Positions 8,196 to 39,596 of a DNA stretch of 64,000 nucleotides are shown in pieces. Within the stretch, counting starts at the first letter, position 1. Each line of letters begins with the position of its first letter. This DNA comes from Populus alba (taxonomy: Eukaryota > Streptophyta > Magnoliopsida > Malpighiales > Salicaceae), in the NCBI RefSeq assembly GCF_005239225.2, contig NC_133299.1, positions 9,242,967-9,306,966 of the forward strand. The letters run 5' to 3'. Position numbers and translations under genes: made by a program. The notes below the pieces were generated by a model. It was not told the origin of the DNA. It was given only the letters and a program-made list of their open reading frames with translations, and made no database searches.

Positions 8196-8400
8196 ATGCC
8201 ATTCGCCGAAACTAGTCATTCATTTGTCCCGCCCATCAATCCAGATTCCATAGCGAAAGCTGCGTCGCTGCCGATCCAAAATCAGCAGCAGAAACTGGGT
8301 CGCTGTCGATTTCTGTATCGGCAGCGAAAACTGTGTCACTCCGATTTCTATATCGGCAGCGAAGACTGGGTCGCTGCCGATTTCTTCATCGGCAGTGAAA
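8196..8400. repeat. GGCAGCGAA / TTCGCTGCC motif cluster
   Basis: Alternating 'atcggcagcgaaaactg' and 'gtcgctgccgat' phrases. The two halves are inverse complements, so the DNA can form many small hairpins. The same motif fills 9005-9890 and 10805-11155. Confidence 0.7.
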
Positions 8401-8650
8401 TCATTCCTTTATCCCGGCCATCCATTCGAACGCCATTAGCCAAAGCTAATCATTCTTTGTCCCGGCCATCCGTTTGGATGCCATTAGCCGAAACTAATCA
8501 GTCCTTCATCCCGGCCATCCATTCGGACGCCATTAGCCGAAGCTAATCACTCTTTGTCCCGGTCATCTGTTTGGATGCCATTAGCCGAAGCTAATCACTC
8601 ATTTGTCCCGGCCATCCATTCGGATGCCATTAGCCCAAGCTAATCAACCT
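8395..8650. repeat. 49-bp minisatellite in the solo LTR
   Basis: The phrase GCCATTAGCC(G/A)AAGCTAATCA recurs at 8432, 8480, 8529, 8577 and 8626, spaced 48-49 bp, each followed by 'tgtcccggccatcc'. A looser copy lies at 8196-8260. Non-coding. Confidence 0.85.
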
Positions 8651-9004
8651 TTAATCAACATTTAAGTGTTCGACAATTTAATATTGGTTCTAACAATATG
8701 GTAGTACTCAAGTTAAAATATTTCAAGATTCAACGTATGAAAAAGAAAGGTGCAAGTCACCTACCTGCTCCACCTGTGGGTTGTTCCTGTCTTGATGATG
8801 GTCCAATCCCGACCGCACCACCTAAGACAATAATGGTCAGAAATCAGCACAGTTGTATTTATTTTATTTTTGAATCATATTCATCATCACACTTATTTCA
8901 AGAGTTCATATGTTCACATTCAAGTGTTCCATATTTTACACCATCATATCATGAAATTGTTACTAGCATTTAAGTCATTCCTACCTAGGAGGCTTATTGT
9001 AGAA

Positions 9005-9890
9005 ATCGGCAGCGAGAACTGGTTCGTTGCGGGCTGCCCAATTCGGCAGCGAGAACTGGTTCGCCGCAGGCTGCCAGTTCGGCAGCGAAAACTGCATCGA
9101 TGTTGGTTCCACAGTTTCGCTGCATAACGCACAACTCGGGAGCGAAAATCAATTCACTGCACGAGGTTCAGTTGCGGCAGCGAAACAGAATTTCGCTGCA
9201 CAATACACAAATCGACAACAAATATCGATTCGCTGCAAGAGGTTCGGTTTCGGCAGCGAAACAAAATTTCGTTGCGCAACACACAAATCGGCAGCGAATA
9301 TCAATTCGCTGCAGGAGGTTTGGTTTCGGCAGCGAAATAGAATTTCGCTTCGCAACACATAATTTGGCAGCGAATATCAATTCGCTGCAGGAGGTTCGGT
9401 TTCGGCAGCGAAACAGAATTTCGCTGCAGGAGGTTCAGATGCGGCAGCGAAACAAAATTTCGCTGCTCAATACACAAATCGGCAACGGATATTAATTCGC
9501 TGCAGAAGGCTCAGTTTCGGCAGCAAAACAGAATTTCACTGTACAACACACAACTCGGCAGTGAATATCAATTCGCTGCAGGAGGTTCGGTTTCGGCAGC
9601 GAAACAGAATTTCACTGCGCAACACACAATTCGGCAGCGAATATCAATTCACTGCAGGAGGTTCAGTCTCGGCAGCGAAACAGAATTTCGCTGCAGGAGG
9701 TTCAGTTGCGGCAGCGAAACAGAATTTTACTGCATAACACACAAATCGGCAGTGAATATTAATTCGCTGCAGAAGGCTCAGTTTCGGCAGCGAAACAGAG
9801 TTTCGCTGCACAACACACAAATTGGCAGCGAATATTAATTCGCTGCAGGAGGTTCGGTTGCGGCAGCGAAACAGAATTTTGCTACACAAC
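9005..9890. repeat. long GGCAGCGAA minisatellite array
   Basis: Higher-order repeat made of 'ggcagcgaa(aca/tat)' and 'aattcgctgc' modules separated by 'aggaggttcggttt' or 'acaacacacaaatc'. About ten copies, with strong local similarity. The modules are inverted relative to each other. Predicted proteins on both strands are Arg/Gln-rich repeat artefacts, not genes. Confidence 0.8.
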
Positions 9891-10185
9891 ACACAAATCA
9901 GAAGCATCGATTTCAGCACATAATTCTTCAACAAAATTCCAACAACAACATCACAGCAGAACACATTAATTTCAGTACATAATTCTTCAACAAAATTCCA
10001 GCAATAACATCACAGAAGAACACATTAATTTCAGCACATAATTCTTCAACAAAATTCCAGCAACAACATCACAGCAGAACACATTAATTTCAGCACACAA
10101 CATCACAGTAGAACACATTAATTTCAGCAACAACATCACAATTAATTTTAGCAACAACATCACAGCAGAACACACACACACATGC
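9891..10185. repeat. 59-bp tandem repeat in the solo LTR
   Basis: 'cacattaatttcag(c/t)acataattcttcaac' units start at about 9962, 10021 and 10080, preceded by a partial copy, with a 59-bp period; truncated copies follow to about 10165. Confidence 0.8.
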
Positions 10186-10804
10186 ATGCTGGCCTACCCC
10201 ATAGTTAAAGCCAGCCCTCTACCATGATTTGTTAGATGTTCTGAAATTGACTTTATTTCACTTCTGTTTGCTAGTTCTCCTAGTTAATTTCAGTTTCCTT
10301 CATAGTTGGCTTAGGTCTTAGATCAATTTTTCTTACGGTTTTTCTTCTTCATTTTCGTTTCTGATTTTAAGGGGAAGAGGAAGGGAGTTTCATGACCCAT
10401 ACCTTCTGAATTTAACTAAGTTTGAGGAAGGTTTGACACTATTCTTTTCTCTTCAGCTGCTGGTTCTCCTCCTTCTTCTTCCTCTCACGTTTTCCAGCTC
10501 TCTTTTTCCTCTCCTCTATGCAGCTGCCCACTCCTCTCTCAAGGTCTCATCTCTCCCTCACAGGTTCACAAGGCAATCTCTACTGGTTTGATTCACGTTT
10601 TTGTTGTGAAAGGGGAAGGGAAGAATGGCATGCAGCTGTTGGTTTGGGAAGAAGATGGATCATTCTCTCTCCCCTCTTTGTATTTATACTACCCATCAAA
10701 TGAAATGGGTTGTTTGGGGGTTGGTTTAGGTGTGTTCTTATCCTTGTTTGGTTTATCTAAAACCAGTTTTACCCCTCCCTCCCAGCTCTGTGTCACTGTT
10801 GATT
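10186..10804. other. unique part of the solo LTR
   Basis: No coding capacity. Pyrimidine-rich blocks (10440-10570) and a possible TATA element 'gtatttatact' near 10680 would fit an LTR promoter region. Orientation of the LTR cannot be fixed from this alone. Confidence 0.35.
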
Positions 10805-11155
10805 GAGAAATCAGCATCGAAAACTGCGTCGCTGCCGATCAAGAAATGGGTAGCGAAAAACTGTGTCGCTACCGATTTCTGTATCGGTAGTGAAGGTTGC
10901 GTCGCTGCCAAATCCAGAATCGGCAACGAAAACTGCATCGCTGCTGATTTCTGCCTCGGCAGCGAAAACTGCATTGCTACCGATCCAGAAATCGACAGCA
11001 GAAACTGCGTCACTGCCGATCAAGAAATGGGCAACAAAAAATTGTGTCGCTGCCGATTTCTGTATTGGTAGTGAAGGTTGCGTCGCTGCCAAATCCAGAA
11101 TCGGCAACGAAAACTGTATCGCTGCCGATTTCTGCATCGGCAGCGAAAACTGCAT
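10805..11155. repeat. second GGCAGCGAA/TCGCTGCC array
   Basis: Same inverse-complement modules as at 8196 and 9005. A duplication of about 190 bp is visible: the block starting 'ctgtgtcgctaccgatttctg' at about 10860 recurs near 11043 as 'ttgtgtcgctgccgatttctg'. It ends at a CT-rich and AT-dinucleotide stretch (11163-11215) near the LTR end. Confidence 0.75.
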
Positions 11156-12434
11156 TCATCGTCATCTCTCTCTCTCTCTAAATAAATAAATATAAATATA
11201 TATATATATATATATTATGTTATTTATTTATTTTTTTCCTTTGGGTGTTTACAAAATGATTGATCTCCGTTAGTGCATCCCATATTCCCTTTGGCAACAA
11301 ATCACGAAATGCTAATGGGATGAGTGTTTGCGTAAACACGTGGCAGTCATGACTCTTCATTCCATACAATCTGCTGTCCTCTATGTTAACAAGCCTTGAT
11401 ATGTTCGATGCATGTCTATCCGAAAATCGCAGACTCTTAAGCCATTTGTAGACTAGCAGTTGTGCGTTTTTCTCTAACACGAAGCTTGCCCTTGGTTTTG
11501 CAACCCGTGACTCCTCATAAACCAACTCCATATTTTTACGGTTACAGTATAAAGCTATATCCAATCTAGCCTTCAAGTTGTCCTTTGTCTTCCCCTTCAC
11601 ATCCATGACGGTGTTGAAAATATTCTCAAACACGTTCTTTTCGATGTGCATGACGTCAAGGTTATGGCGAAGAAGATTGGTCTTCCAATACGGAAGCTCC
11701 CAAAAGATACTTCGCTTTTCCCAATTATGGGTCAAACCAAAACCAGGAAACTTTTGCTTACCTGATTGAAGGCCAAAGTTCTCTTTGAGCCTATTCCCTT
11801 TAGGTAAAATGCTTCTTGCCCAATCAATAATTTTGTCATACCTGGCCTCACTCAACCCGTGATCTGACTTGATGGTGAACACTTGTGCCACAGCCGATAT
11901 TTTACTGTGGTTTGTGTAGCCATCCTATAATGGTTCGTCAAAATCTTTCAACAAATCAAAAAACCTAGCTGCCTCTGCATTAGGTTCTTCTTCTAAGATT
12001 GGACATTGATTGACATTATCTTGATTCATTCTCATTGCATCCATAACCATGTTTCTATAAGGATTAGTGTTGTCATTTGCCGCTTTATGCACGTTGCTAG
12101 CACTAGAAGTTGACCCAACCACCGTTTCTCCCATTCTCCTATTACTAACAAATACCTCTCCATGTGCATACCAACACTCGTAATCCTCCACAAACCCTTT
12201 GTGTAGAAGATGCATCATTACAACATCTGGATGCAGATACTTTTTATTTTGACACTTCCTGCATGGACACCTAATACCGCCTCCAGTAAAATTTCTGGGA
12301 ATAGATGTTGCGAAATTAATAAAACCCTGAACCCCGTTACAATAATCCATCCTCCGCAATCCTTGGGGTGAATCTAGATACATCCATGAACGATCATCCA
12401 TGACTTCTATCGAACCTCTATAAAAAGGACCCAT

Positions 12435-12700: not shown

Positions 12701-13380
12701 AAAAATGATAAAATCCGTCGGTAAATCAGAACACGGATGCTGTGACCACAAAACTTCAAGAAATACAACTTGTTGTGCTAAGATGAGGAAGATTTTTGTT
12801 TTGGGGCGAGGGGGGGCTGGTTATTTGCAGATGGGGAGGGTTAGGATTAGGAAGAAGAAGGAGAAATGGGGGAGGAGAGTGTCGGCAGAGTGGCCATATA
12901 TTCACTTTTGCCGATGGACTTACCGATGGTTTTATTCCATCGGTGAATACGTCGACGAAATCGTCAGTAATTCTGACGGGCAATCAACACGTCACCGCAC
13001 GGACCTGCTATTCAAATCCCTCGGTGATTCCGTCGGTATTTTTAACGGTGCACCGGTCACGTCACCGGTACAGATCTGGCATTTCAAATCCGTCGGTATT
13101 ATTGACGGTGAACAGGTCCCATCACGCGTACGGCTCCCCGGTTTTCATTCCGTCTGAAAAATCGCCCGCCAAAACCTCCGCGCCACCCACCCGCCCTTTT
13201 TTCATTAATTCTAAATTTTCTGTTGGTAATTCGGTCGGTAAATACCGACGGACTATATCCGTCGGTAATTACCGACCGAATTACCGACGAAAATAGTCCG
13301 TCGGTGATTTCGACCGAAAAATACCGACAGAAAAAATTTCGTCGGTGAGTCCGTTGGTATTTAGCGAATTTCTGGTAGTG
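12700..13380. repeat. CACTA right subterminal and terminal repeats
   Basis: Multiple CCGTCGGT / ACCGACGG motifs, densest from 13225 to 13370, ending in TCTGGTAGTG (13371-13380). Inverted, this end matches the left end for the first five bases and 9 of the first 10. Confidence 0.85.
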
Positions 13381-13383
13381 CAA

Positions 13384-15877
13384 GCTCAATTTGCACTTGA
13401 CTTCAAAAATCAATTTCAAGCTTTGAAGACACAACTCGACCTCGTCAAAGCCTTTCTTGCTGACACAAATAACCTCAAAATGAAGAAGGAAACTCTCAAG
13501 ACGAGCTTGATCAAGCTGAGAGATCTGGTTTACGAAGCAGATGACATATTGACAGATTGCGTTCTTAGATATGATTATCAGAAAGATGGGTCCTGCTCCA
13601 AATACACACCTGATGAATTTTTCTTCAGGTGTCGAATGGGGAGGCAATTGATGGACTTGAACTCACGCATGGGCAAGATGGGGAGTGACTTGAGCGCATA
13701 TTTAACTCCACAACATCTTCTATCATTGGGAGACAACACTTACCGAGCTAAGGTATTTACCTCTCAGGATTTTGAGCCATCTGAGGTTATTGGACTGGAA
13801 GAAGATATAGAAAAGCTAAAACGATGGACTTTTAGTGCAAGTGGAGTACTCCAAAGAATTGGCATTGTGGGAATGGGGGCTTAGGTAAAACCACCATTGC
13901 ACAAAAGTTTTTTGAAGATAGGGCGGTCGCTGGCATTGATAAAAAAATCTGGGTGTCCGTTTCTCAGGATTTCAGTGATGAAAGGATAATCAAGAGCATA
14001 TTGGTGCAGTTAGGAGAGAATCCCTCCCCAGTGTCTGATCTAGGCCAAATGTTGCATGTTATCAACCAATCACTTCAAGGTCAGAGTTGCCTCATTGTCA
14101 TGGATGATGTTTGGAGCTTCAATCAAGATTGGTGGGGTAAGCTATGTTCTGCTATTAAAAAAACAGAAAAGAGAAGTTGTGTCATGATTACAACAAGAAA
14201 TGAAGATGTGGCAACCCATATGGGAGTTGAAAGTTCACGCATTCACCACCCAAAAGTTCTTGATGAGAAGGACAGCTGGTCATTGTTCTGCAACTTTGCC
14301 TTCCAGGAGACCAAGGGAAAATGTTCTAATAGCCAATTTGAAAAGGTAGGCAAAGAAATTGTGGGGAAATGTGGGGGGCTCCCTCTTGCAATTAAGACAA
14401 TAGCAGCCTTTCTTGCAACAGAAGTTCACAACCTTGGCAAGTGGAAAGACATTCTTGATCACTTCCATGAATTGACTACCAGGAAGCAAAATAGCTCAGT
14501 TAAGACTTCTCTGCAATTGAGCTATGATGCACTCCCTACACATCTGAAGCAATTTCTTCTATGCTTCTCAATTTATCCTGAAGATTTCGTGATTCTTGCT
14601 GAGCAATTAGTGCATTGGTGGGTTGGAGAGGGCTTCATCCAGAGAACAGAGCACTCAAAAACCGCAGAGGACTTGGGATATGAATATTTGACAGATCTAG
14701 TCAGAAGATGCCTTGTAGAAGTTGTGGAGAGGCGTGGCTATGATGGAAGAGTCTACAGCTGTAAGATGCATGATTTGGTTCGTGATTTAACAACAATGTT
14801 TGCTGAAGATGAGATGTTGTGTAGCTTTGAAGCAGGCAAGCAGAAATTGTCACCTGATTCACGATGGCTGGGCCTGACGAGTGAAATGAGCACAGCAACA
14901 TAAAGCATTATTCAAAGCTCAGGGCATTGCTATTAATGGCCAGCAGTCAACGTCAATTTCCTTTCAGTAAGAACCAAATGGTGTCACTTGACTCTCTCAG
15001 GGTATTGGATCTCTCTCGAATTAGGTTAGATAGCACTTCCATGGAGAAGCTCTTGAGCTGGATTTTTTCGCTCCAACGCCTAGCATATCTAAATCTCAGT
15101 GGAGCTGTAGGCCTTAAAGAAATGCCATCTTCAATCCGGAAACTTCGTAATCTCCATCTTTTGATATTAGCCGAATGCAGTGATTTAACTAAACTGCATC
15201 CATCGATCTCATATTTGAAGAATCTCATAGTCCTGGACTGTGGATCTTGTGGTCTCCAATACCTACCCCAAGGAATTGGAAACCTCTCTCAACTTCAAGA
15301 ACTATCAGGTTTCAGGGTGGTACGTCAAGCCACAACACAAAGTTGTCATCTCCTAGAGCTAAAACAACTGGTCCAACTACGAGTACTTCGAATGAACCTC
15401 AGCAATGAGAGCGAAATCACTGAAAGTGAAGGGGAGATCTTATCCAAGCTTGTGAAACTTAGGGTTCTAGCCATCAACACTGAAGATTGTAAAGATAGAA
15501 CTATCCTAGAGATGCTAGATCGACTACACCCTCCTCCAAACCTCAAGGAATTGTATCTTAGGCGCTACCCTCACAAAAGTTTGCCTAAATGGATTAATCC
15601 AACGAAGCTTCCTGTTCTGCAATATCTCTGCCTTGAGAATGGATCAGCTCTCAAAAGCATCAATCCAAGTGCTCATTCCGAGGAAGAGAGTGCCTTCTCT
15701 TGGAACTACCTTGAGGGTTTGTGTTTGAAGTTCTTGCCATTCTTGGATGAAGACTGGACTGACTTACAGAAGACCATGCAGTCAATACGTTATGTTGAGG
15801 TTAGCAATTGTTTCAATTTGAAAAATTTCCCATGTCCGGTTGACAAGTCAGGGATCTGGAGGAAGGTTGAAGATTAA
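13384..15877 (+). pseudogene. CC-NB-ARC-LRR (CNL) resistance-type gene, main body, disrupted
   Basis: Continues in frame from the 5' piece at 2332-2397. The order is: Rx-N coiled coil with an EDVID-like 'LRDLVYEADDILT'; P-loop; RNBS-A 'KKIWVSVSQDF'; kinase-2 'CLIVMDDVW' (Trp marks the non-TIR class); RNBS-B 'CVMITTRNEDVA'; 'CGGLPLAI'; RNBS-D 'LLCFSIYPEDF'; 'CKMHDLVRDL' (MHD). Leucine-rich repeats follow to the TAA at 15875-15877. Uninterrupted length would be about 850 residues, normal for a CNL, and no coding intron is needed. Lesions: a one-base deletion in the G run at 13875-13879 makes a TAG inside the P-loop, and a second one-base loss near 14888 (ATG-AGC context) shifts the frame again. 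Such proteins are intracellular immune sensors; this copy cannot make a full product as assembled. Confidence 0.9.
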
Positions 15878-18530: not shown

Positions 18531-18907
18531 AGACATCGCCAAAAATTAGTGGTAAAAATTTAGGTTATCATTGCCAAGCTTCTATCTTTGAGGCTTAGAA
18601 AAGTTATCAATGAGGTGATTAATAACTCTCATTCTGCTTTCATCGCAAAGCGGAAAATTCTTGATTGTTCTATTTTGCCTAATGAGATTAGGGATAGTAT
18701 GCAAAGAAAGCGTGACCAAGGCTTTCTTTTCAAAGTGGGTTTTCAAAAGGCTTTTGATTTAGTGACTTGGGGTTTCCTTTTTGAAGTCATGGATTTTTTA
18801 GATTCAGGAATGTATATCTATAGCTTATCTTTATGTATTAATTAATAGCTCGCCATCTAATGAGTTTCATATGCATAAGGGTATCAGACAAGGGAACCCT
18901 TTGCTAC
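18531..18907 (+). pseudogene. LINE (L1-type) reverse transcriptase remnant, 5' part
   Basis: Frame from about 18573 gives 'AKLLSLRLRKVINEVINNSH', then SAFIAKRKILD, LFKVGFQKAFDLVTWGFL; after a frameshift near 18840 it gives 'INSSPSNEFHMHKGIRQGNP'. These match the RT motifs of plant L1-type LINEs (QSAFIxxRxILD, KxDFxKAxDxVxW, GxRQGxPLSP). The LTR element inserts directly inside the last motif, and the LINE continues at 31229. Only a fragment remains. Confidence 0.8.
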
Positions 18908-19585
18908 TGATTAGTACTTAAAAGTGCATCTTTATCAAGGGTTTATATCATCATTTTGCACTTAAAGTATCAATAACTCCTTAACTAAAGCATGTTTTAT
19001 AATAACAAGTCTAATATTATAAAATACCCTAATATATGGTAAATGTTCATCCTAAATGCAGGTATATCACATAAATCAAAGGATTGATTGATGAATTCAA
19101 CTACTGAAATTTTGAAGATAAAGAAGGGTGAAGCTTAGAAAGAAGAAGTCCGAATCTATCCTGCAGCCCAACACTGTTCAGTGTTCAGCCCATATCTCGA
19201 GTTTTAGATATCCAAATGATCTGAAATTTTTACAGAGATTTGATAAGAAATAGGCCTACAACTTTCATTTGGACATCAAGATCTAAGAAGGCCGTTTTGA
19301 AGTCCAAATTATAGCAACAACGGAGAAGTCCAAAGCTGTCCTGCAGCCTAAACACTATTCAGTGTTCAGCCCATATCTTGAGTTCTAGAAGTCCAAATGA
19401 CCTCATCTTTTTTTTTTCTGGAAAGCTAAGAGAATTTCGCAGAACTTTCATTTGGACATCTGGACCCAGTTCTGATGCTAGCATTTTTGATTTATTAAGA
19501 CAAGAAGATAAGGATTTTCACCAAGTCAAAAGGTGGCCACCCACTCAACAATTAGTCATCAAATCAATAATTCCGAATTTTGGCC

Positions 19586-19592
19586 TATAAAA
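19586..19592 (+). promoter_or_regulatory. TATA box in the 5' LTR
   Basis: TATAAAA in 'tggcctataaaaggaggc', conserved in the 3' LTR at 29920-29926. This is the likely core promoter of the retroelement transcript. Confidence 0.6.
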
Positions 19593-20384
19593 GGAGGCAT
19601 TTGCCATATATTTTTGGGCTTGGTTGTTCAGAACAAGTTCATGCTCTTTATTTCTCTCTTTATATTTTTTGTAATTCTTAAGTTTTGCTTTCTTTAATTT
19701 CTTGTTTATGCTTTTCATTTCCTTTCCTTTCGTTAGTTAAGTTGTATTTTATTTATGTTCTTGTTTTATTTATTTATGTTTTTCTTCTTCATTATGTTTA
19801 GCTAAGTTTATTATGTCAAGGTGAAAAGGTTACACTAATGGTGTAAGAACAAGTATGGTGTAAACTCAACATGGACCTTAATGTTTAATATATTAACATG
19901 TCTTATCTTTTTATCTTACTAATTCTTAATACCTTGCTTGTTAAATGGTTAATCTAAATTTGTGTTGTATAATACTTGGTACAACAAATGCTTGGCACTC
20001 TCATAACCCAACCGTATGGTATTACCTACACCTGGAGCTATGAAAGGTACTTGATTTGTTGTTAACATCAGTTAACATCATGAATTCCTGACAATATTTA
20101 AAAGTTTGGTGTTATGTAAATAAGATAATTAATATGATCATGTTAATAATTTATAATGAGCTATTAATGACAAATCATCCGACTAGAACCTCCTTCGTGT
20201 GTGGTTTCCAAAATTGAGTAATAAGAGTTTATACTATACTTGTTTGGAAATACCATTGGTGGATCCTCTAACCTTGACATTTGTCTTTATTATTGTTTAA
20301 TCCTTACATTAATCTTCCATCTCAAAGTTCTCATTAATTTCTTCCTCCTCGTCTTTTTATTGTTATTATTATTATTATTACTAA

Positions 20385-20421
<37 letters not shown>

Positions 20422-20634
20422 TACATTCTTGTTATATTTTATGTACGTTAAGTATGCTCTGTGTTTGATCAAGGATCCTGATATTGTTGATCTTGCCTTG
20501 TTCATTCGCATCAGAAATCTGTTGATATTATATAATATATCTCTTTGATCTTTTCATAAACTCAGTATATAGGCTGGAAACCTGTGACCCAATCTTTGAG
20601 ATCATTCTCAGGTGTAACAACGCCACATATTGAG

Positions 20635-20635
<1 letters not shown>

Positions 20636-20732
<97 letters not shown>

Positions 20733-20795
20733 TTATTATTATTATTGTTGTTGTTGTTGTTGTTGTTATTTTTGTTATTATTATTGTTGTTGTTG
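20636..20795. repeat. compound trinucleotide microsatellite (ATT)n(ACT)n(ATT)n(GTT)n
   Basis: About 160 bp in the 5' LTR. The 3' LTR copy (30967-31110) has a much shorter ACT run, so the two LTRs have diverged here mainly by slippage. Confidence 0.9.
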
Positions 20796-20921
20796 TCTTG
20801 TTATTTATAATTTATACAATTAACCTCTCTGTGGTTCGATCCCGATCTTGTCGGGTTATTTATTACTTCGACACTCCTACACTTGGGAGAAGACATCAAT
20901 CTTTTGGTCGTGTCAAGTTTT

Positions 20922-20939
20922 TGGTGCCGTTGCCGGGGA
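20922..20939 (+). other. primer binding site (tRNA-Asp type)
   Basis: TGGTGCCGTTGCCGGGGA starts six bases after the 5' LTR. It is complementary to the 3' end of plant tRNA-Asp except for one G:U-type position. Athila elements typically use this tRNA. Confidence 0.8.
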
Positions 20940-21070
20940 GGTAAATTCTTATACAAATTTTAGTATTTTTTTTTCTTTCTTTTCACTTTTCTTGTATCTA
21001 ACTTTGTCTCTTTTGTGTTGTTTCTTTTTCTTTTGTTTTCTTCTTCCTTTTATTCTCTTTCTACACGTGC

Positions 21071-22753
21071 ATGAGTGTTTGGTCACGTACATTAAGTGGT
21101 AGACTTTCTAGGGTATCCTCATCATTTTCAGAAAATATGGCCGAAGAAGATAACCAGTCACTTCATAATGAGAATAATGAGAATAATGAGAATAACCGTG
21201 TTAGGACACTTAAAGACCACATGAATCCCACAAGAACAAGTGCACCCTCATGCATAGTTTTCCCTCCTGATGCATCTCATTTTAATTTTAAGCCAGGCAT
21301 TATTCAACTTTTACCTTCTTTTCATGGCTTAGATCTAGAAAATCCATACTTGCATTTGAGAGAATTTGAAGAAGTTTGTAACACCTATAATGACTTAAAT
21401 TGTAGCATGAATACCATTAGATTAAAGCTTTTTCCTTTTTCATTAAAAGATAAAGCTAAAACATGGCTACAAAATCTTAGGTCAGGATCCATTCGTGCTT
21501 GGGATGAAATGCAACAACAGTTTTTAAAAAAGTTTTTTCCATCTCACAGAACCAACTCTTTCAAAAGACAAATCACCACTTTCACTCAAAAACCAGGAGA
21601 AACATTTTACCAATGTTGGGATAGGTATCGAGACTTGCTTAATACTTGCCCTCATCATGGTTTTGAAACATGGAGATTGGTTTCACAATTTTATGAAGGA
21701 TTAACACCTAAAGATAGGCAAATGGTTGAATTGATGTGCAATGGAACTTTTGAAGATAAAGACCCTAATGAAGCAATAGAGTACTTAGACTTGCTAGCTG
21801 AAAATGCACAAAATTGGGACACTAAGGGCACTTATGAGGCACCAAGTAAAACCTAACCTCATACATCTAGTGGAGGTATGTATAACCTTAGGGAAGATCA
21901 TGACCTCCAAGCCAAGTTTACATCTTTAGCTAGAAAAGTCGAGGCACTAGAATTGAAAAAGAGTGGTCAATTAAAATCTGTTCAAGACATTGTGTGTCAA
22001 ATCTGTGAAACAAATGAACATGCAACCAATAACTGTCTAACTTTGCTTTCTTTCAAGGAATGTCTCCATGAACAAGCCCATGCCTTAAATAGTTTCCAAA
22101 GGCCCAATCATAACCCATACTCGCAAACATACAATCCTGGTTGGAGAAATCACCCAAATTTCAGTTGGAAGAGTGATAACAATAATGCACAAACTACACA
22201 GCCACCGTTTCAAGCACACCATAATTTCCAAAATTCTCATGAATATGCACCTCCTTATGCTCCACCTCCTAGAAGAAATCTTGAGGAAACATTGCATGCA
22301 TTCATTGAAAAGCAAGAGACAATCAACAATCAACTTACTCAAAGCATGACAAATTTTAAAGATGCTCTTGCAAAATTCACATCTGCTCTCAGTTTTCAAG
22401 AGAAAGGTAAGTTTCCATCTCAACCACAGCAAAATCCAAAGGGGCAATACAATGCAAATGCAAGTAGTTCCGAAAGCCAACACATGGATCAAGTCAAATC
22501 AGTCATCACTCTTCGCAGCGGTAAGGTTATTGAAAAACCCACTCTTGAACCTTGTGAGAAAGATGATGAGCCAATCTCTGAGGGTAAGGAAGGGGTTGAA
22601 TTTGAACGTTGTGAAGAAAAGAATGATTCTCCGCCAGCACTTCCATTTCCTCATGCCATGACCAAACAAAGGAAAGTCAATCACAATTCTGAAATCCTTG
22701 AAATTTTCAAACAGGTAAGGATCAATATACCTTTGTTGGATGCTATTAAATAG
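21071..22753 (+). pseudogene. gag (capsid/nucleocapsid) region of the Athila-type element
   Basis: ATG candidates at 21071 and 21137. The protein has an Athila-like capsid region ('LLPSFHGLDLENPYLHLREF', 'FPFSLKDKAKTWLQNL', 'FLKKFFPSHRT') and a zinc knuckle CQICETNEHATNNC (CX2CX4HX4C). Stops TAA at 21854-21856 and TAG at 22751-22753 lie in the same frame; both fit CAA/CAG glutamine codons changed by C-to-T. In the family, gag forms the particle that packages RNA. The protein is truncated twice as it stands. Confidence 0.85.
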
Positions 22754-25700
22754 GTACCTTCCTATGCTAAATTTTTGAAAGATCTATGCACTGTAAAGAG
22801 AAAACTGAAGGTGAAAAAGAAAGCCTTTTTAGCCAAACAAGTAAGTGCTATTCTTCAGAATAATAATGCTTTGAAATATAAAGACCCTGGTTGTCCTACC
22901 ATTTCTTGCTTTATTGGAGAACATAAAATTGAAAAAGCTTTACTTGATCTTGGAGCTAGTGTGAATTTACTTCCATATTCGGTTTTTCAAAGTCTCAATC
23001 TAGGTGAGATAAAACCAACTTCTGTAACTCTTTTACTTGCTGATAGATCTGTAAAAGTGTCTAGAGGAATAGTTGAGGATGTGTTAGTACAAGTTGATAA
23101 ATTCATTTACCCTGTAGATGTCTTGGATACACAACCTGTTGAAGCATGTAATTCAATTCCTGTTATTTTAGGACGTCCATTTCTTGCAACTTCTAATGCA
23201 TTGATTAATTGTAGGAATGGACTGATGAAACTATCATTTGGAAACATGACATTGGAGATGAATATTTTTAACATTTGCAAGCAACCTAGAGATGATAATG
23301 ATTTACAGGAAGTGGACTTTATTGAAAAATTAGTTCATGATCAATTTCAAACCACTTCTAGTGAAACTGAGATTGATGAACCTAACGAGTTGCAAATGGT
23401 TTATTTTCAAGAAGAAGCAAAGGCATGTAATTGGAGACCACAAATTGAAGAATTGCCATTACGATCAATTGAGTCTATACCTTCAAGTGTTCAACCACCA
23501 AAACTTGATTTGAAGCCGTTACCAGTCAATCTCAAATACTCATTTTTGGGAGAAAATGAAACTTTTCCGGTAATAATCTCTTCCAAACTTAATGCACATA
23601 AAGAAGGTAAGTTATTACAAACTCTAAAAATGCACAAAAATGCATTAGGATGGACCATAGCTGACATAAAAGGAATTAGTCCTTTGATTTGCACACACAG
23701 GATTTATTTGGAGGAAAATGCTAAACCATCTAGAGAAATGCAACGAAGACTTAATCCTAATATGAAAGAAGTAGTGAAAAATGAAGTCATTAAGCTTCTA
23801 GATAATGGAATCATTTATTCTATTTCTGACAGCAAATGGGTAAGTCCTACCCAAGTTGTACCCAAAAAGTCTGGAGTCACTGTGATAACAAATGAGAAAA
23901 ATGAGTTAATTCCAACTCGGACTATTACTGGTTGGCGCATGTGCATTGACTATAGGAAATTTATTCAATGACTAGAAAAGATCATTTCCCTTTACCTTTC
24001 ATGGATCAAATCCTCGAAAGAGTTGCAGGTCATGAATTTTATTGTTTCCTAGATGGCTATTCAGGTTACAATCAAATTGAAATTGCATTGGAAGATCAAG
24101 AGAAGACTACTTTCACATGTCCATTTGGTACTTTTGCATATCGAAGAATGCCTTTTGGGTTATGTAATGCACCAGCTACGTTTCAAAGATGCATGCTTAG
24201 CATATTCAGTGATATGATTGAACGTTTTCTTGAGATTTTTATGGATGATTTTTCTGTTTTTGGTGATTCATTTGATGATTGCTTAACTAACTTGGAAAAG
24301 GTTTTGAACAGGTGTGAAGAGAAGAATCTTGTACTGAATTGGGAAAAATGTCACTTTATGGTAACAAACGGCATTGTACTTGGTCACATTGTTTCATCGA
24401 CAGGAATTGAGGTTGACAAATCTAAAATCGAGTTAATTGCCAACTTACCAACACCAAAATCTGTTAAAAATGTTAGATCATTCTTAGGACATGCTGGTTT
24501 TTACAGAAGGTTCATCAAAGATTTTAGTGCAATATCTAAACCATTATGTAACCTTCTATCAAAGGAAACTGTTTTTGAATGGACTGAACAATGTGAAAAA
24601 GCCTTTGTTAAACTTAAAAGCTTGCTTACTTCTGCTCCTGTCATTCAACCTCCTGATTGGTCATTACCTTTTGAAATAATGTGTGATGCTAGTGATTATG
24701 TCGTGGGTGCTGTCTTGGGACAAAGAAACGATAAGAAACCTTATGTGATTTCCTATGCAAGTAAAACTTTAAATAGTGCTCAAATGAATTACACTACCAC
24801 TGAAAAAGAATTACTTGCAGTAGTATTTGCATGTGACAAGTTCAGATCTTATCTTGTTGGCTCACCTGTTGTTGTTTTTAGTGATCATGCAGCATTGAAA
24901 TATCTTCTCTCTAAGAAAGATTCTAAGGCTAGATTGGTGCGGTGGATTTTGTTACTTCAAGAATTTGATATCACAATCAAAGACAAGAAAGGCACCGAAA
25001 ATATTGTCGCAGATCATTTGTCAAGATTGACAACCGATTCGAGATCTGACATCACACCAATCGATGACTACTTTCCTGATGAATCTTTATTTTCTGTCTC
25101 TATGATGCCTTGGTTTGCTAATATTGTTAATTTTCTTGTTTCAGGACAATTGCCAGCTCATTGGAGTACCCAAGACAAAAGAAAGTTCTTGAACGAAGTT
25201 AAGAACTTTTATTGGGATGACCCTTATTTATTCAAATATTGTCCTGATCAAATATTTCGAAGATGCATTCCTGACAATGAGGTAAGTAATGTCATTAAAT
25301 TTTGTCATTCTGAGGCATGTGGGGGTCATTTCTCATCAAGAAAGACAACTGCAAAAATCTTACAAAGTGGATTTTACTGGCCCACCATGTTCAAAGACTC
25401 ACATGCATTCTGCAAGACTTGTGAAAATTGTCAAAAGTTGGGATCTATTTCAAAACATCACATGATGCCTTTAAATCCTATTCTTGTCATTGAGATCTTT
25501 GATTGTTTGGGTATAGATTTTATGGGTCCATTTCCTCCATCATTTGGTTTCTTGTATATATTGGTCGCAGTAGATTATGTTTCAAAATGGATAGAGGCAA
25601 TTCCAAGTAGAACCAATGATCACAAAACAGTGATAAAATTTTTGAAAGAAAACATTTTAAGTCGATTCAGAATCCCTCGAGCCATGATAAGTGATGGTGG

Positions 25701-26403
25701 AACACATTTCTGCAACAAGCCATTTGAATCTTTAATGAAGAAATATGGAATCACACACAAAGTTGCCACCCCTTATCACCCTCAGACGAATGGACAGGTA
25801 GAACTTGCTAATAGGGAGATCAAACAGATCTTGGAGAAAACGGTAAACCCTAATCGGAAAGACTGGTCTTTAAGACTTAATGATGCACTTTGGGCTTATC
25901 TAACTGCATATAAAACATCATTAGGTATGTCACCCTATAGACTAGTCTATGGAAAACCTTGTCACTTGCCTGTGGAAATTGAACATAAAGCTTATTGGGC
26001 TATTAAAGCTTTCAATTCAAACATTGATGATACTAGTCAGCTGCGAAAATTGCAAATAAATGAGCTTGAGGAAATAAGAAATGATGTATATGACAATTCA
26101 AGAATTCATAAAGCAAGAATCAAAGAGTTTCATGACAAGAAAATATTGAGAAAAACATTCAATGTTGGTCAAAAAGTCTTGCTTTATAATTCTCGACTCC
26201 ATTTATTTCCTGGAAAACTAAGATCAAGATGGAGTGGTCCTTTTATTGTGAAACATGTGTATCCATATGGGGCCTGTGATATCGAAAATCCAAAGAATGG
26301 TAATGTTTTCAAGGTAAATGGCCATCGTTTAAAAGTTTATTTTGACAATTTTTCAGTTGAAAATGACTCTATTGAATTGGGTGATCCTATATATAAAGAT
26401 TGA
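22754..26403 (+). pseudogene. pol (protease-RT-RNase H-integrase) of the Athila-type element
   Basis: In frame with gag. Protease motif 'ALLDLGASVNLLP' near 22935; RT from about 23640, with '[11 protein letters not shown]' and catalytic FMDD (24235-24250); RNase H '[16 protein letters not shown]' and '[10 protein letters not shown]'; integrase zinc finger H...H...CKTCENC (about 25300-25435); then the D,D,E core: 'GIDFMGP', 'ISDGGTHF' and '[11 protein letters not shown]'. It ends 'GDPIYKD' with a TGA at 26401-26403. A one-base deletion near 23955-23965 (after IDYRK) shifts the frame within RT, ending the first reading frame at 23971. From 23968 the frame is open for 811 codons, so the rest is well preserved. 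Confidence 0.9.
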
Positions 26404-26600
26404 TTTTTTTTCTCACATTGTTTTTGTGTGACTTTTGTTTTGCTAGTCTCTCACCCTGGTCAAATGGCGGATAACGGTACTCCGTGACTTTTAAGTCGGT
26501 TCTTTCAGTTTCCCATGATAACTGATATCTATGTATATATTTGTGCAATTCTTTGCTCTTTCTCCTTTCTTTGAATCTCTCCCCCAATTCTCAGTTGAAA
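26404..26600 (+). other. spacer between pol and the accessory genes
   Basis: About 200 bp of non-coding DNA after the pol stop, with a short TATA-like 'atgtatatat' at about 26531. It is the leader of the cysteine-rich ORF if that is separately expressed. Confidence 0.35.
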
Positions 26601-27149
26601 ATGGACACCACTCTTGAAAAATTGAAAAAGTATTTTCCCGCTCTGCCTCAGAATGCGATTACAAAAATTTACCGTGCTAGATGTGCAAGATTGAGGTTGT
26701 TAATGAACCATGGAATTCCTGAAGATATTCGCTTGCTGATTGAAGCAAAGATCCGATTATCAGGTGAGTCCTCCAATTCTTTCATTTCATACATGCCTGG
26801 AACAGGTAAAAGCACTTTTGCGAAGAAACGTCGTGCAAAACGACTGAAAGTCTGTCACCGATGTGCTAGATGGACTTGTAATGCGACATGTCGTTCTTTA
26901 GGAATGATATCTGTAAACCGTGAAGATAAAATACAATTCATTAAGGATGGCCTAAGTAAGGGGTCTTTAGATAATTTTCTATTGACTCTTGAGACGCATC
27001 CTAGTGGAGATGTGCATCGTGCAATTTATGATTTATGGCCCCAATTCCATAAAGAACATGCTCGACTTAGTCTTGGGAATCTGACTAAAAAAGACCCTGT
27101 TTGCCAGTTTTTAAGAAAACTGGATGGGAAGCCTATCCCCGACCCATAG
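26601..27149 (+). CDS. basic cysteine-rich protein in retrotransposon, carlavirus NABP-like
   Basis: Intact 182-codon frame from ATG 26601; the frame is open upstream but without an ATG. The N-terminal third is Leu/Arg-rich. The centre has a Gly-Thr-Gly-Lys-Ser stretch, then a strongly basic run (KKRRAKR) leading into four cysteines (CHRC...CNATC, C-X2-C-X4-C-X3-C), and then 'DKIQFIKDG'. A basic arm next to a cysteine cluster followed by an FIK-G motif is the layout of carlavirus cysteine-rich nucleic-acid-binding proteins (Pfam Carla_C4), some of which suppress RNA silencing. That similarity is recognised by eye and needs an HMM test. It occupies the position where Athila elements often have an env-like frame. 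The GTGKS is probably not a true NTPase P-loop, as no ATPase fold follows. Confidence 0.6.
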   Translation: MDTTLEKLKKYFPALPQNAITKIYRARCARLRLLMNHGIPEDIRLLIEAKIRLSGESSNSFISYMPGTGKSTFAKKRRAKRLKVCHRCARWTCNATCRSLGMISVNREDKIQFIKDGLSKGSLDNFLLTLETHPSGDVHRAIYDLWPQFHKEHARLSLGNLTKKDPVCQFLRKLDGKPIPDP

Positions 27150-27417
27150 AGGGCGTTTAAGCCGTTCTTGGACGTAAAACCAATGGAAGATGTGAGCCAT
27201 AATCACAACTCTTGTACATACATATGCTTTTTCAAAATAAATAATTAATAAAGAGAGAGAGAGAGAGAGTGTGTGTGTGTGTGTGTGTGTGAGACTACAG
27301 CTGGCCTACATATAGGTGGTATGATTGCATTTTCAATTTCTAATCTATAAATTCTTCTCTTCCTTCCCTTCATTTCTACTCAACCCATACATTCATCAAA
27401 TACAGACGTGTGTAGAA
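27150..27417 (+). promoter_or_regulatory. leader region of the LOG gene
   Basis: Contains a (GA)n(GT)n microsatellite (about 27251-27292), a TATA-like 'ctataaatt' at about 27345, then a pyrimidine-rich run before the ATG. This looks like a plant promoter plus 5' UTR, but no test is possible from sequence alone. Confidence 0.35.
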
Positions 27418-28071
27418 ATGGCAGGTTCCTCAAGTAATCACATAAACAAAATTTGTGTTTTTGGTGGATCTAGTCCCGGGAAAGAAAAAGAGTTTTTAGA
27501 ATCAGCAAATCATCTTGGTCAGGTACTAGCTGAGCGAAAGATTCATTTAGTGTATGGAGGAGGCAGCCTTGGGTTAATGGGGGGAGTGTCAATAGCTGCA
27601 TCTTTAGGAGGTAGTCAAGTTTTGGGGGTTGTCCCCAAAGCTTTAGCACAAGGGGACATCATTGGAAAAACAATTGGAGAGGAATTACAAGTCCCCACAA
27701 TGTCTGATCGACTGAACGCCATGTTTAACCATGCTGATGCCTTCATTGCCTTACCAGGTGGTCTGGGCACATTGGAAGAAATCTTTCATATTTCCTCTTG
27801 GGCCCAACTGCACATTCACCATAAACCCATAGGTTTGTTAAATGTTAATGGTTTTTATGATAAGTTGTTGTCTTTTCTTGATTATGCTGTGGAACAGGAA
27901 TTTCTAACATCTTCAGCACGACAAATCATAATCTCTGCTGCTACTGCTGAACAATTGATTGACCAACTACAATCTTTCATCCCTGTAATTAATCCCTCCA
28001 TGAGTCGCATAAATTGGTCAACTAAGGAAAGCCGTAAAAAGCTTAGATTGGATTTGAGCCTTCGTTTGTAA
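27418..28071 (+). CDS. LOG-like: LOG-type cytokinin riboside 5'-monophosphate phosphoribohydrolase, intronless, inside LTR element
   Basis: The 217-residue intact frame from ATG 27418 has the normal LOG length. Motifs: 'KICVFGGSSPGK' near the N-terminus, 'VYGGGSLGLMG' (residues about 47-57), an Arg in 'MSDRLNAMF', and 'ALPGGLGTLEE' matching the family signature PGGxGTxxE. LOG enzymes cleave ribose-5-phosphate from cytokinin nucleotides to give active free bases in the cytosol. Plant LOG genes have several introns; this copy has none, which fits capture of a spliced mRNA. The ATG at 27418 is chosen because the homology starts right after it; the frame is open further upstream. The tail 'KKLRLDLSLRL' contains an LxLxL EAR-like string. 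A Tyr-to-Leu change in the PGG motif and Lys-to-Leu after the Arg depart from typical LOGs, so activity is uncertain. Confidence 0.9.
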   Translation: MAGSSSNHINKICVFGGSSPGKEKEFLESANHLGQVLAERKIHLVYGGGSLGLMGGVSIAASLGGSQVLGVVPKALAQGDIIGKTIGEELQVPTMSDRLNAMFNHADAFIALPGGLGTLEEIFHISSWAQLHIHHKPIGLLNVNGFYDKLLSFLDYAVEQEFLTSSARQIIISAATAEQLIDQLQSFIPVINPSMSRINWSTKESRKKLRLDLSLRL

Positions 28072-29242
28072 AAACTTTGTGTCTTTTGGTTTTATTATTG
28101 TGTTCTGTTGTTTCTTATATTTTTGTAAGTGTGTTTCAGGTTTGTTAGTGTTCGTTATTTCAGGTGATGTCTTCTATACTCTATCTTTCTACCTTAAGAC
28201 ATTGAGGACAATGTCTCATTTTGGTTGGGGGGAAAGGGTAGTAGTTAAAAAAAAAAAAACTGTGTTTTATTTCATAAACTATTTGCAAAACTGTTGTTAC
28301 TAGGATGGTAGAGTAAAAGGAGTTATTTTGTTAAAGTGACTCTTGAGACGCATCTTAGTAAACATTCTTAACAAGGTCTATCATAATACTTCTTGAAATA
28401 TCTAAGTTTACAAACTCTCATATTGTTAACACTTGATTCTGCTCATATGCTCATTTAACAAGTATTCTTAAATCTTCATTTTCACACACACACTTTAACA
28501 TATGATTGTGGGTTGCACATTGGATTATTACATTATTTATGTTCTTTTGTTAAAGGTAACAACTAAGGGAAAGGGATAATACATAATTTGCATAAAAAAA
28601 ACAAAAAAAAAAACTTTCTTTTTAATGATGAATAAAAACGTAGATAAGTTTGGTTTCGTAACCTCCCTAACCTAAGCAATTAAGCCCGAAGGGGTGTTTT
28701 AACACTTAATACCCTAAAGTCAACTGACTTGGGAGCTATTGGCCCAAAGCTTGTTACATGGGTTAAGGAGAAAAGCATAAGGGAATCAAACATTGCACTA
28801 TCTATGTATCAATATCTGCAACCCGAGTTGCTAAGCTCGTAGAGGTGTCTCAACACCTAATGCCCTAAGACCAACTGGTCTGGGAGTCATTAGCCTAAAG
28901 CTCGTTACATGGGTTAAAGATGCATTGTGTTTTAAGTTGTATGTGTAAATAGAAAAAAAAAAAAATAATCCCAACCCAAGGAAGTTAACCTTAAACATTA
29001 GAACATAATATTGGTTTCTTCCAACAATAGCCCCATCATATATGTTTTCATACATTGAGCACATAAAAAGAAGGTTTATTAATATCTTGTTTAAGAAATA
29101 TGAAGCAGAAATGAGAGTTTGTTTATCTGGATAGATTAATGGAAGTTTAATGATGAATGCCTTGCTTTATGGAATTTGCAAATTGTTTTTCTATTTTAAC
29201 ACTTTGATTACTAGGGACTAGTAATAAGCTGGTTGGGGGGTG
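28072..29242 (+). other. 3' non-coding region and polypurine tract of the Athila-type element
   Basis: After LOG there is a 'cattgaggacaatgtctcatt' phrase and a first G-rich 'ttggttggggggaaaggg' at about 28221-28238, typical of the region after pol in Athila elements. Then comes an imperfect direct duplication of about 100 bp (28666-28770 and 28818-28921, offset 152; shared phrase 'gttacatgggttaa'). The likely priming polypurine tract is 'ggttggggggtg' at 29231-29242, abutting the 3' LTR. No other gene; the 77-residue minus frame at 28831-29064 is not supported. Confidence 0.6.
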
Positions 29243-30715
29243 TGATTAATACTTAAAAGTGCATGTTTATCAAGGGTTTATATCATCATTTTGCACTTAA
29301 AGTATCAATAACTCCTTAACTAAAGCATGTTTTATAATAACAAGTCTAATATTATAAAATACCCTAATATATGGTAAATGTTCATCCTAAATGCAGGCAT
29401 ATCACATAAATCAAAGGATTGATTGATGAATTCAACTACTGAAATTTTGAAGATAAAGAAGGGTGAAGCTTAGAAAGAAGAAGTCTGAATCTGTCCTGCA
29501 GCCCAACACTGTTCAGTGTTCAGCCCATATCTCGAGTTTTAGATATCTAAATGATCTGAAATTTTTACAGAGATTTGATAAGACATAGGCCTACAACTTT
29601 CATTTGGACATCAAGATCTAAGAAGGCCGTTTTCAAGTCCAAATTATAGCAACAACGGAGAAGTCCAAAGCTATCCTGCAGCCTAAACACTATTCAGTGT
29701 TCAGCCCATATCTTGAGTTCTAGAAGTCCAAATGACCTTATCTTTTTTTTGCTGGAAAGAAAAGAGAATTTCGCAGAACTTTCATTTGGACATCTGGACC
29801 CAGTTCTGATGCTAGCATTTTTGTTTTATTAAGACAAGAAGATAAGGATTTTCACCAAGTCAAAAGGTGGCCACCCACTCAACAATTAGTCATCAAATCA
29901 ATAATTCCGAATTTTGGCCTATAAAAGGAGGCATTTGCCATGTATTTTTGGGCTTAGTTGTTCAGATCAAGTTCATGCTCTTTATTTCTCTCTTTATATT
30001 TTTTGTAATTCTTAAGTTTTGCTTTCTTTAATTTCTTGTTTATGCTTTTCATTTCCTTTCCTTTCGTTAGTTAAGTTGTATTTTATTTATGTTCTTGTTT
30101 TATTTATTTATGTTTTTCTTCTTCATTATGTTTAGCTAAGTTTATTATGTCAAGGTGAAAAGGTTACACTAATGGTGTAAGAACAAGTATGGTGTAAACT
30201 CAACATGGACCTTAATGTTTAATATTAACATGTCTTATCTTTTTATCTTACTAATTCTTAATACCTTGCTTGTTAAATGGTTAATCTAAATTTGTGTTGT
30301 ATAATACTTGGTACAACAAATGCTTGGCACTCTCATAACCCAACCGTATGGTATTACCTACACCTGGGGCTATGAAAGGTACTTGATTTGTTGTTAACAT
30401 CAGTTAACATCATGAATTCCTGACAATATTTAAAAGTTTGGTGTTATGTAAATAAGATAATTAATATGATCATGTTAATAATTTATAATGAGCTATTAAT
30501 GACAAATCATCCGACTAGAACCTCCTTCGTGTGTGGTTTCCAAATTGAGTAATAAGAGTTTATACTATACTTGTTTGGAAATACCATTGGTGGATCCTCT
30601 AACCTTGACATTTGTCTTTATTATTGTTTAATCCTTACATTAATCTTCCATCTCAAAGTTCTCATTAATTTCTTCCTCCTCGTCTTTTTATTGTTATTAT
30701 TATTATTATTACTAA

Positions 30716-30752
<37 letters not shown>

Positions 30753-30988
30753 TACATTCTTGTTATATTTTATGTACGTTAAGTATGCTCTGTGTTTGAT
30801 CAAGGATCCTGATATTGTTGATCTTGCCTTGTTCATTCGCATCAAAAATCTGTTGATATTATATAATATATCTCTTTGATCTTTTCATAAACTCAGTATA
30901 TAGGCTGGAAACCTGTGACCCGATCTTTGAGATCATTCTCAGGTGTAACAACGCCACGTATTGAGTATTATTATTAGTATTATTATTA

Positions 30989-31026
<38 letters not shown>

Positions 31027-31223
31027 TACTACTACTATTACTATTATTATTATTATTGTTGTTGTTGTTGTTGTTATTTTTGTTATTATTATTGTTGTTG
31101 TTGTCTTGTTATTTATAATTTATACAATTAACCTCTCTGTGGTTCGATCCCGATCTTGTCGGGTTATTTATTACTTCGACACTCCTACACTTGGGAGAAG
31201 ACATCAATCTTTTGGTCGTGTCA
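29243..31223 (+). repeat. 3' LTR
   Basis: TGATTAATACTT...GGTCGTGTCA. It matches the 5' LTR throughout, 27 bp shorter mainly from microsatellite differences. TATA box at 29920-29926. Confidence 0.95.
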
Positions 31224-31228
31224 GCTAC

Positions 31229-37918: not shown

Positions 37919-39596
37919 TGATTAGTACTTAAAAGTATTAATAACTCCTTAACTAGAGCATGTTTTATAATAACAAATCTGATAATATAAGATACCTTTA
38001 ATTTATGGTAAATGCTCATTTTAAATGCAGGTATATCTCATAATTCAAAGGATTGATTATTGTGATTAACTATTGTAAGTGAAAGGACAAAGAAAAGGCT
38101 AAACTTAGGAAGAAGATGCCGATTCAATTCAAATTCGAACACTGTTCAGTCATTGGGTCATATCTAGAGCTATAGATCTTGGATTTCAGTTTGGTTTATA
38201 TGGATGGAAAGATAAGAAATAGGCCTACAACTTTCATGCATAGGGAAGGAGCCAAATCTGCCGATTTCAAATTCAAAGTTTGGCCACAAAAGAGAATTCA
38301 GAATCGGTCTTGCAATCCAACCCAAACACTGCTCAGCATTTTACCCATATATGGAGTTCTAGAAGGCCAAATGACGTGAAATTTGGTGGGTGGAAGGAAA
38401 AGAAAATTTCCAACAACTTTCATGTAGAAGCCATGCTCACATTCTAATGGTAGCAATGACATTTCATCTAGACAAGAGCTTGAGGGCTACCCACCACATC
38501 CACCAGCAGCACTACTCAGTATTTTAGACATATCTCAAGTTGTAGTGATCCAAATACTCTAACATTTGGTGGATGGAAGGAAAAGACAATTTCCAACAAC
38601 TTTCATGAAGAACACTTTACCAAATTCTGATTGCTTCAATGTCATTTCATCCAACCAAAATGCTTGAGTGCTATTGTCCACCTAGTCCACTAAATCAATA
38701 GTTGACCACTACATCAATAATCAATTACCAAATGAATAGTTTTGGATTTTAGCTTATAAAATAAGGCATTTGCCTTTCATTTAGGTATCTTGTTTTTCAA
38801 ATGAAGATCATGTTCTTGCTCTCTCTCTTCATATTTTTGTAATGCTTAAGTTTTGCTTTCATTAATCTCTTGTTCATGCTTTTCATTTCCTTTACTATAC
38901 TTAGTTAACTTATATCATGTTTATGTTCTTATATTGTTTATTGATGTTTTTCTTCTTCATAATGTCTAACTAAATTAATTATGTCAAGGTGAAAAGGTTT
39001 CACTAATGGTGTTAGGATAAGTATAAAATAAACTCAATATGGACTTTAATACTTATATCCTTAACAACTTGGCATTAACATGTCTTATCATTTTTATTTT
39101 ATCAATTCTTAATACCTTGCTTGTTAAATGGTTAATCTAGATTTGTGTTGTATAACACTTGGTACATTAAATACTTGATCCTTCATAGTCTTCGACCGAC
39201 GTCGTTGTTATGAGAGGAACTTGATTTGTTGTCAACATAAGTTAGCATCATGAATACTTGATAAAATTTATAAGTATGGTGTTACATAAATAAGATAATT
39301 AATATGATCATGTTGATAATTTATAAAGAGTTTATACGTTACTTATCTCTAATACTAGTAATGGATCCTCTAACCTTGACATTTGTTTTTATCATTGTTT
39401 AATCTTCACATTGATCTTACATCTCAAAGTCCTCTTTAACTCATCACCACCACCACCACCATCATCATTGTTGTTGTTGTTGTTGTTGTTGTTTATATAG
39501 TTCACCTTCCTGTGGTTCGACCCCGGTCTTGCCGGATTATTTATTACTTGTACACTCCTGCACTTGGGATAAGACATCAGCTCTTTGATCCTATCA
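37919..39596 (+). mobile_element. solo LTR related to the Athila-type element
   Basis: Starts TGATTAGTACTT, ends TTTGATCCTATCA, flanked by the 5-bp duplication GAAAC (37914-37918 and 39597-39601). Alignable with the 18908 and 29243 LTRs over most of its length ('gtcaaggtgaaaaggttt', 'ctcaaagtcctc', 'cacttgggataagacatcag') but clearly older and shorter (1,678 bp). It has a CAC/GTT microsatellite at 39443-39492. It arose by recombination between two LTRs of a related insertion. Confidence 0.9.

Follow-up and report, generated by a model that had tools for sequence, protein, structure and literature searches.

A Ty3/gypsy retrotransposon of Populus alba carries two cargo genes, one for a 182-aa protein resembling the zinc-finger nucleic-acid-binding proteins of plant viruses and one for a LOG-type (cytokinin riboside 5′-monophosphate phosphoribohydrolase-like) protein. 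Both genes belong to the element, and its other copies repeat them in the same order. Purifying selection acts on the two frames as the family, which has at least 150 LOG-domain copies in one genome, multiplies. The element occupies 12.3 kb (18908–31223) of the window, the whole 64,000-nucleotide stretch analysed here. We read the pair as an accessory cassette kept by selection, possibly combining a counter-measure against silencing with local activation of cytokinin; these functions are predicted ones, and we give the reading an even chance of being right.

Structure of the element and its two cargo genes

The LTR pair, the TSD, the PBS, which we take to be of the tRNA-Asp type, and the PPT were all present in the element (Table 1). 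The LTRs differed at 27 of 1,981 aligned bases (K2P 0.0138), which would correspond to about 2.75 million years at a rate of 2.5e-9 or to 0.5 million years at 1.3e-8, both rates being our assumptions. A Pfam scan gave the domain order gag, protease, RT, RNase H, and integrase, with a weak protease match (22.7 bits; cut-off, 24.3). In the window copy, gag-pol was broken by an in-frame TAA at 21854, a TAG at 22751, and a frame change near 23968. The integrase frame ended at a stop at 26403, and two intact sense frames followed, that of the 182-aa protein and then that of LOG. The sequence-only reading of this DNA had described an intact, intronless LOG frame between integrase and PPT in an element whose LTRs match and whose TSD has 5 bp, and this description was confirmed on the sequence; the 182-aa frame was absent from that reading. 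No ORF of at least 100 aa was listed in the 1.2 kb between LOG and the 3′ LTR. In this non-coding part, the PPT-like tract lies one kilobase 5′ of the genuine PPT, a 23-base segment of the 182-aa gene recurs at 28337–28359, and an 89-bp repeat (79%) was observed at 28681–28920.

Table 1. Parts of the element and of its target site, in window coordinates.
Feature	Position	Strand	Remark
TSD, left	18903..18907	no strand	GCTAC
5′ LTR	18908..20915	+	TGATTA...GTGTCA; TG...CA ends
PBS	20922..20939	+	TGGTGCCGTTGCCGGGGA
gag, first piece	21071..21856	+	Retrotrans_gag; stops at in-frame TAA
gag-pol, second piece	21878..22753	+	same frame as first piece; stops at TAG
Protease region and downstream part	22775..23971	+	Asp_protease_2 match just under cut-off
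RT, RNase H, integrase	23968..26403	+	frame differs from preceding pieces
182-aa protein gene	26601..27149	+	matches Viral_NABP and Carla_C4 (plant-virus zinc-finger nucleic-acid-binding proteins)
Spacer separating the cargo genes	27150..27417	+	GA/GT microsatellite, TATAAAT
LOG-type frame	27418..28071	+	cytokinin riboside 5′-monophosphate phosphoribohydrolase-like; 217 aa
3′ non-coding region	28072..29228	+	PPT-like tract at ~28223-28238; divergent repeat
PPT	29229..29242	+	CTGGTTGGGGGGTG; 14 bases, directly 5′ of 3′ LTR
3′ LTR	29243..31223	+	
TSD, right	31224..31228	no strand	GCTAC

The window element is best explained as a member of an Athila-like Ty3/gypsy family that is present in P. alba at high copy number, an explanation that, taken jointly, stands in our estimate at about an even balance. 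Athila, Calypso, and Diaspora, which we presume to be the closest lineages, have a single RNase H, long LTRs, a 5-bp TSD, an extra region behind integrase, and presumably the PBS type in common with it. Models of RT-type RNase H overlapped at one place in the Pfam scan, followed by H2C2 and rve, and no additional RNase H family was found in the element, which fits Athila. An additional RNase H is described as the mark of the Tat lineage (PMC6317226). Some relatives of Athila have an env-like frame, whereas the window element has the two-gene cassette in that position. None of the six element proteins scanned matched ATHILA (PF03078).

The 182-aa protein matched Viral_NABP with an E of 3.1e-7 (31 bits; curated cut-off, 23) and Carla_C4 with an E of 3e-5 (24.3 bits; curated cut-off, 20.9), and none of six shuffled versions of the sequence matched either family. 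Among 35 sequences, comprising the window's protein and 34 homologues chosen for alignment from the best 120, 31 and 30 matched Viral_NABP and Carla_C4, respectively, at E up to 0.01. A protein search yielded 601 of 660 candidates at E up to 0.01; the relatives named to species among the best 120 of these 601 belonged to Populus, Xanthoceras, and Acer. A search for relatives in viral contigs confirmed none. As in the cysteine-rich proteins of carlaviruses and other Viral_NABP proteins, a basic stretch is followed by a Cys finger, but the 182-aa protein has conserved extra N- and C-terminal parts and a more compact finger, and it is borne by a retrotransposon. Its finger, C-x2-C-x4-C-x3-C, was found in 32 of 36 full-length ungapped genome copies and in 84 of the 120 best-listed homologues, and its spacing departs from the C-x2-C-x9-C-x4-C of PVH (PMC3689765). 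A comparison with solved structures gave a single match (E 0.31), and the predicted structure was too poor to read (mean pLDDT, 55.9; pTM, 0.32).

The same features would suit a nucleocapsid-like nucleic-acid chaperone, whose viral likeness would come from a shared ancestor or from capture of the gene by viruses from elements. The basic stretch with its Cys finger and a conservation that spans the full 182 aa, beyond the finger alone, agree with this, and the data are compatible with either direction of transfer, but the protein matches two virus families specifically and is encoded separately from gag. We regard the chaperone as possible, though doubtful.

The LOG frame matched Pfam Lysine_decarbox (E 4.8e-38) and TIGR00730 (171.7 bits; cut-off, 96.35), and it scored 116.5 bits against the cut-off of 300 bits of the NCBIfam LOG equivalog, a model built for bacterial and archaeal annotation. 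Two solved plant LOG-family proteins, At2g37210 (2a33), presumably LOG3, and At5g11950 (1ydh), share with it the domain family, the PGGxGTxxE motif, and the Arg aligned in plant LOGs, at identities of 50% and 45%, respectively. The element LOG differs from them in being multi-copy and intronless and in having R-L where both have R-K, and they fall outside the element-type LOG clade described below. The motif was retained in all 48 full-length ungapped LOG copies of the P. alba genome, in 79 of the 120 best-listed LOG homologues, and in 39 of the 46 new rows of a second homologue list. Since this motif and the finger of the 182-aa protein are less complete in the databases than in the genome copies, many database entries for both proteins are decayed or partial.

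Because of the R-L in place of R-K and the score under the equivalog cut-off, the substrate of the element LOG stays putative. The enzyme might be a general nucleoside-monophosphate hydrolase, acting on nucleotide pools or modified nucleotides or in defence, and not a maker of cytokinin; besides the two features just named, the broad membership of TIGR00730 and the 45–50% identity to the two Arabidopsis proteins point that way. Against it stand the motif in 48 of 48 copies and the name LOGL10 that NCBI gives to the close poplar relatives (these are names, not tests), and we consider it unlikely.

Recurrence and selection of the cassette in the P. alba genome

The 416-Mb genome of P. alba was searched with the LOG domain, the 182-aa protein, and the integrase end, and 1,248, 1,722, and 2,346 unconfirmed first-look candidates were obtained, respectively, 150 of which were scored in each case. 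All 150 scored LOG domains matched at more than 130 bits, and 149 of them had no stop; among the 150 listed matches to the 182-aa protein, 21 had one in-frame stop. When the two top-150 lists were compared, a same-strand 182-aa match lay 939–985 bp upstream of 52 of the 150 LOG rows, and the lists contained no opposite-strand pair within 2 kb. Sixty of the 150 scored LOG loci, taken at even ranks, were examined with their surroundings; the sample was drawn from the best LOG scores, is biased to intact LOG frames, and covers LOG-bearing copies. The 182-aa gene, whole or in part, was present at 59 of these loci and the integrase end at 51, in the order seen in the window. An LTR start lay 1,823–1,944 bp past the LOG ATG at 57 of the 60 loci, and the 14-base PPT of the window stood directly before 45 of the 60 LTR-start matches in the examined copies. 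That further copies have LOG in the corresponding position is confirmed and far beyond chance. The sequence-only reading had called LOG a cargo of the element and not its neighbour and had raised the possibilities of a widespread family with LOG at the same place and of a lone insertion; the genome copies bear out the cargo and the widespread family.

Two other accounts were discarded on these counts. A neighbouring host gene was ruled out by the LTR start that 57 of 60 loci have where one is expected behind LOG, and a single chance insertion by the 150 matching rows out of 150 scored.

Ten of the 60 examined copies with the cargo genes (L011, L032, L042, L046, L047, L050, L058, L061, L064, and L068) had an integrase match only over residues 99–177, at 73–76%. 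These cargo-bearing copies with a diverged integrase end hint at recombination between subfamilies.

Selection was assessed on full-length ungapped copies including that of the window, 48 for LOG, 36 for the 182-aa gene, and 24 for the integrase end, whose median pairwise dN/dS values were 0.26, 0.22, and 0.26, respectively. When changes were counted on trees, internal branches gave dN/dS values of 0.20, 0.165, and 0.38 for LOG, the 182-aa gene, and the integrase end, respectively, with no change to stop in any of the three. Terminal branches also take in post-insertion decay, and their values were 0.39, 0.51, and 0.38, with 3, 7, and 3 changes to stop, respectively; because the loci were picked by LOG score, the LOG values are biased, the terminal one most, and those of the 182-aa gene less so. 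The earlier reading had held a functional cargo unlikely if dN/dS were near 1 in all copies, and the 0.20 on the internal branches of LOG is far from that outcome.

A passenger without selection was rejected on the internal-branch dN/dS. Plant LTR retrotransposons are known to capture genes (PMC7264820), and LOG and the zinc-finger gene could have been captured and carried without benefit to the element; two copies (L016 and L043) keep LOG but little of the 182-aa gene, a third (L062) lacks that gene, and the functions of the cassette are predicted ones. The internal-branch values of the two genes, however, are below that of the integrase end, stops are lacking there, and relatives of the same length occur in other rosid families, all of which argues against a passenger; we judge it very improbable.

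The spacer before LOG contained a TATAAAT at 27346, 72 nt upstream of the ATG, in the window copy, and the same heptamer was present within 120 nt of the LOG ATG in 60 of 61 copies. Over 30 copies, the spacer had a mean divergence of 0.022 in the part beside the 182-aa gene and of 0.041 in the part with the TATA box. The comparison values were 0.055 and 0.060 for third codon positions, 0.049–0.053 for the 3′ non-coding DNA, and 0.093 for the interval between integrase and the 182-aa gene. As a TATAAAT precedes the ATG and the spacer is less variable than third codon positions, an internal promoter is possible, and the spacer may hold a short promoter of LOG's own. In so young a family this evidence is weak and suggestive only.

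Relatives in other plants and the origin of the LOG gene

Two LOG trees were built. The first comprised every sixth row of the best 120 homologues, four named genes, and about nine genome copies, and the second combined 28 of the 46 new rows of the second homologue list with four further poplar genes, four genome copies, and three solved chains. In the second tree, nine Populus rows grouped together (99/99). The Populus rows formed a clade (100/99) with LOGs of similar length from Melia, Reevesia, and Diplodiscus, two LOG rows of Xanthoceras (Sapindaceae) adjoined it (94/82), and both Arabidopsis proteins lay outside.

Among the best 120 rows of the second LOG list, Reevesia and Diplodiscus, both Malvaceae, appeared 10 and 6 times, respectively, on many contigs, and the largest cluster had 28 members. 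Going by copy number, the LOGs of these two genera probably lie in elements. In one Xanthoceras gene model, two LOG copies flanked a gag piece that was 54% identical over 48 aa to the gag of the element (E 1e-14). Three pairs of equal-sized contigs longer than 3 kb (8,723, 4,511, and 3,394 bases) had 182-aa and LOG matches, compared with 0.017 expected. Overall, equal sizes between the 182-aa list and the second LOG list numbered 5 against 0.8 expected, and between the 182-aa list and the Populus-rich LOG list they numbered 2 against 3.1 expected, giving no signal. The three equal-sized pairs above 3 kb are probably the same contigs. These relatives in other rosid families suggest that the association of the two genes is old or has moved between plants, and both histories fit the data.

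In plants, LOG genes are known to contain introns, and the intronless frame led the sequence-only reading to propose that a spliced host mRNA had been captured. Taken as a recent event in poplar, such a capture was not supported: LOGs of the same type and length in Reevesia and Diplodiscus, the Xanthoceras model that joins LOG to a gag piece like that of the element, and the excess of equal-sized long contigs all stand against it, and we find it highly improbable. Any capture must be old, since the same type is found in other rosid families and the identity to the two Arabidopsis proteins is only 45–50%. The search for a donor by a LOG tree, suggested in the same reading, yielded the element-type clade and no donor. 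When the poplar gene P0199, named LOGL10, and its kin were compared with P. alba, the 150 scored of 1,755 candidates were all 83–86% identical, a range that fits either a host gene split by introns or the absence of this gene from P. alba. Three other poplar genes named LOGL10 (P0211, P0226, and P0260), which are host genes or element copies, fell in a sister group of the element copies in the tree. If the predicted functions are true, part of the LOG-like genes annotated in poplar and other rosids would prove to belong to elements.

Possible roles, published parallels, and other features of the window

In the mechanism that we favour for the cassette, the 182-aa zinc-finger protein would dampen host silencing or regulate transcription, by analogy with some carlavirus relatives. 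The cysteine-rich proteins of the carlaviruses PVH and PVM are described as RNA silencing suppressors, and p12 of CVB as a transcription factor that causes hyperplasia and does not suppress local silencing (PMC3689765). The LOG enzyme, judging from its domain and motif, would free active cytokinin in cells that express the element, and the hormone might favour dividing or meristem-like cells, with more copies and passage through the germ line as the gain. Transcription of LOG might start from its own short promoter before the ATG. More tentatively, and with some doubt on our part, the family may represent a long-standing lineage of plant retrotransposons with a virus-style toolkit, an anti-silencing or transcription gene joined to a hormone-activating gene, by which host development would be manipulated as it is by plant viruses and gall-forming bacteria. 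If these functions are true, transposons use both the hormone chemistry of the host and counter-defence of the viral type. Extra frames of plant retrotransposons are mostly without known function, and those of this cassette are directly testable by a simple assay of the enzyme and a standard assay of the virus-like protein.

The system is described in part. A LOG-type domain in Ty3/gypsy elements is already in print: YgdH, a domain found in LONELY GUY proteins, was reported for two Citrus species from their Ty3/gypsy consensuses and, once a filter was switched off, also for P. trichocarpa, which agrees with Steinbauerova 2011 as cited there (PMC9289625). This was the sole relevant paper on LOG in retrotransposons among the matches listed. 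Those consensuses have in common with the present element an extra ORF in Ty3/gypsy, the LOG-type domain, and, for P. trichocarpa, the genus; a virus-like partner, a fixed gene order, copy number, and selection are not mentioned for YgdH in the available text of that paper. For the virus-like gene, no report in retrotransposons was found in the literature searched, which was thin in subscription papers. Neither a LOG nor a plant RNA-virus-like gene is mentioned in the available text of Vicient and Casacuberta 2020 (PMC7264820) or Neumann 2019 (PMC6317226). The survey of extra ORFs in the latter had a floor of 250 codons and would therefore miss ORFs of 182 and 217 aa. Orchid Ty3/gypsy elements with an RNA demethylase (ALKBH5-like) ORF (PMC9289625) resemble the Populus case in that their cargo domain also occurs in plant RNA viruses and was retained over rounds of replication, but the orchid cargo is a different enzyme that was active in vitro, whereas the activities of the Populus cassette are predicted ones.

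Elsewhere in the window, a diverged relic of a related LTR was observed at 37927–39439, mostly 71–78% identical to the LTRs of the element, and it suggests that an older cousin was once nearby. The stretch 8252–12434 contains long tandem arrays and, on the minus strand, frames resembling what we take to be a CACTA-type transposase. The frames at 13345–15877 read like a gene that is presumably a coiled-coil NBS-LRR resistance gene.
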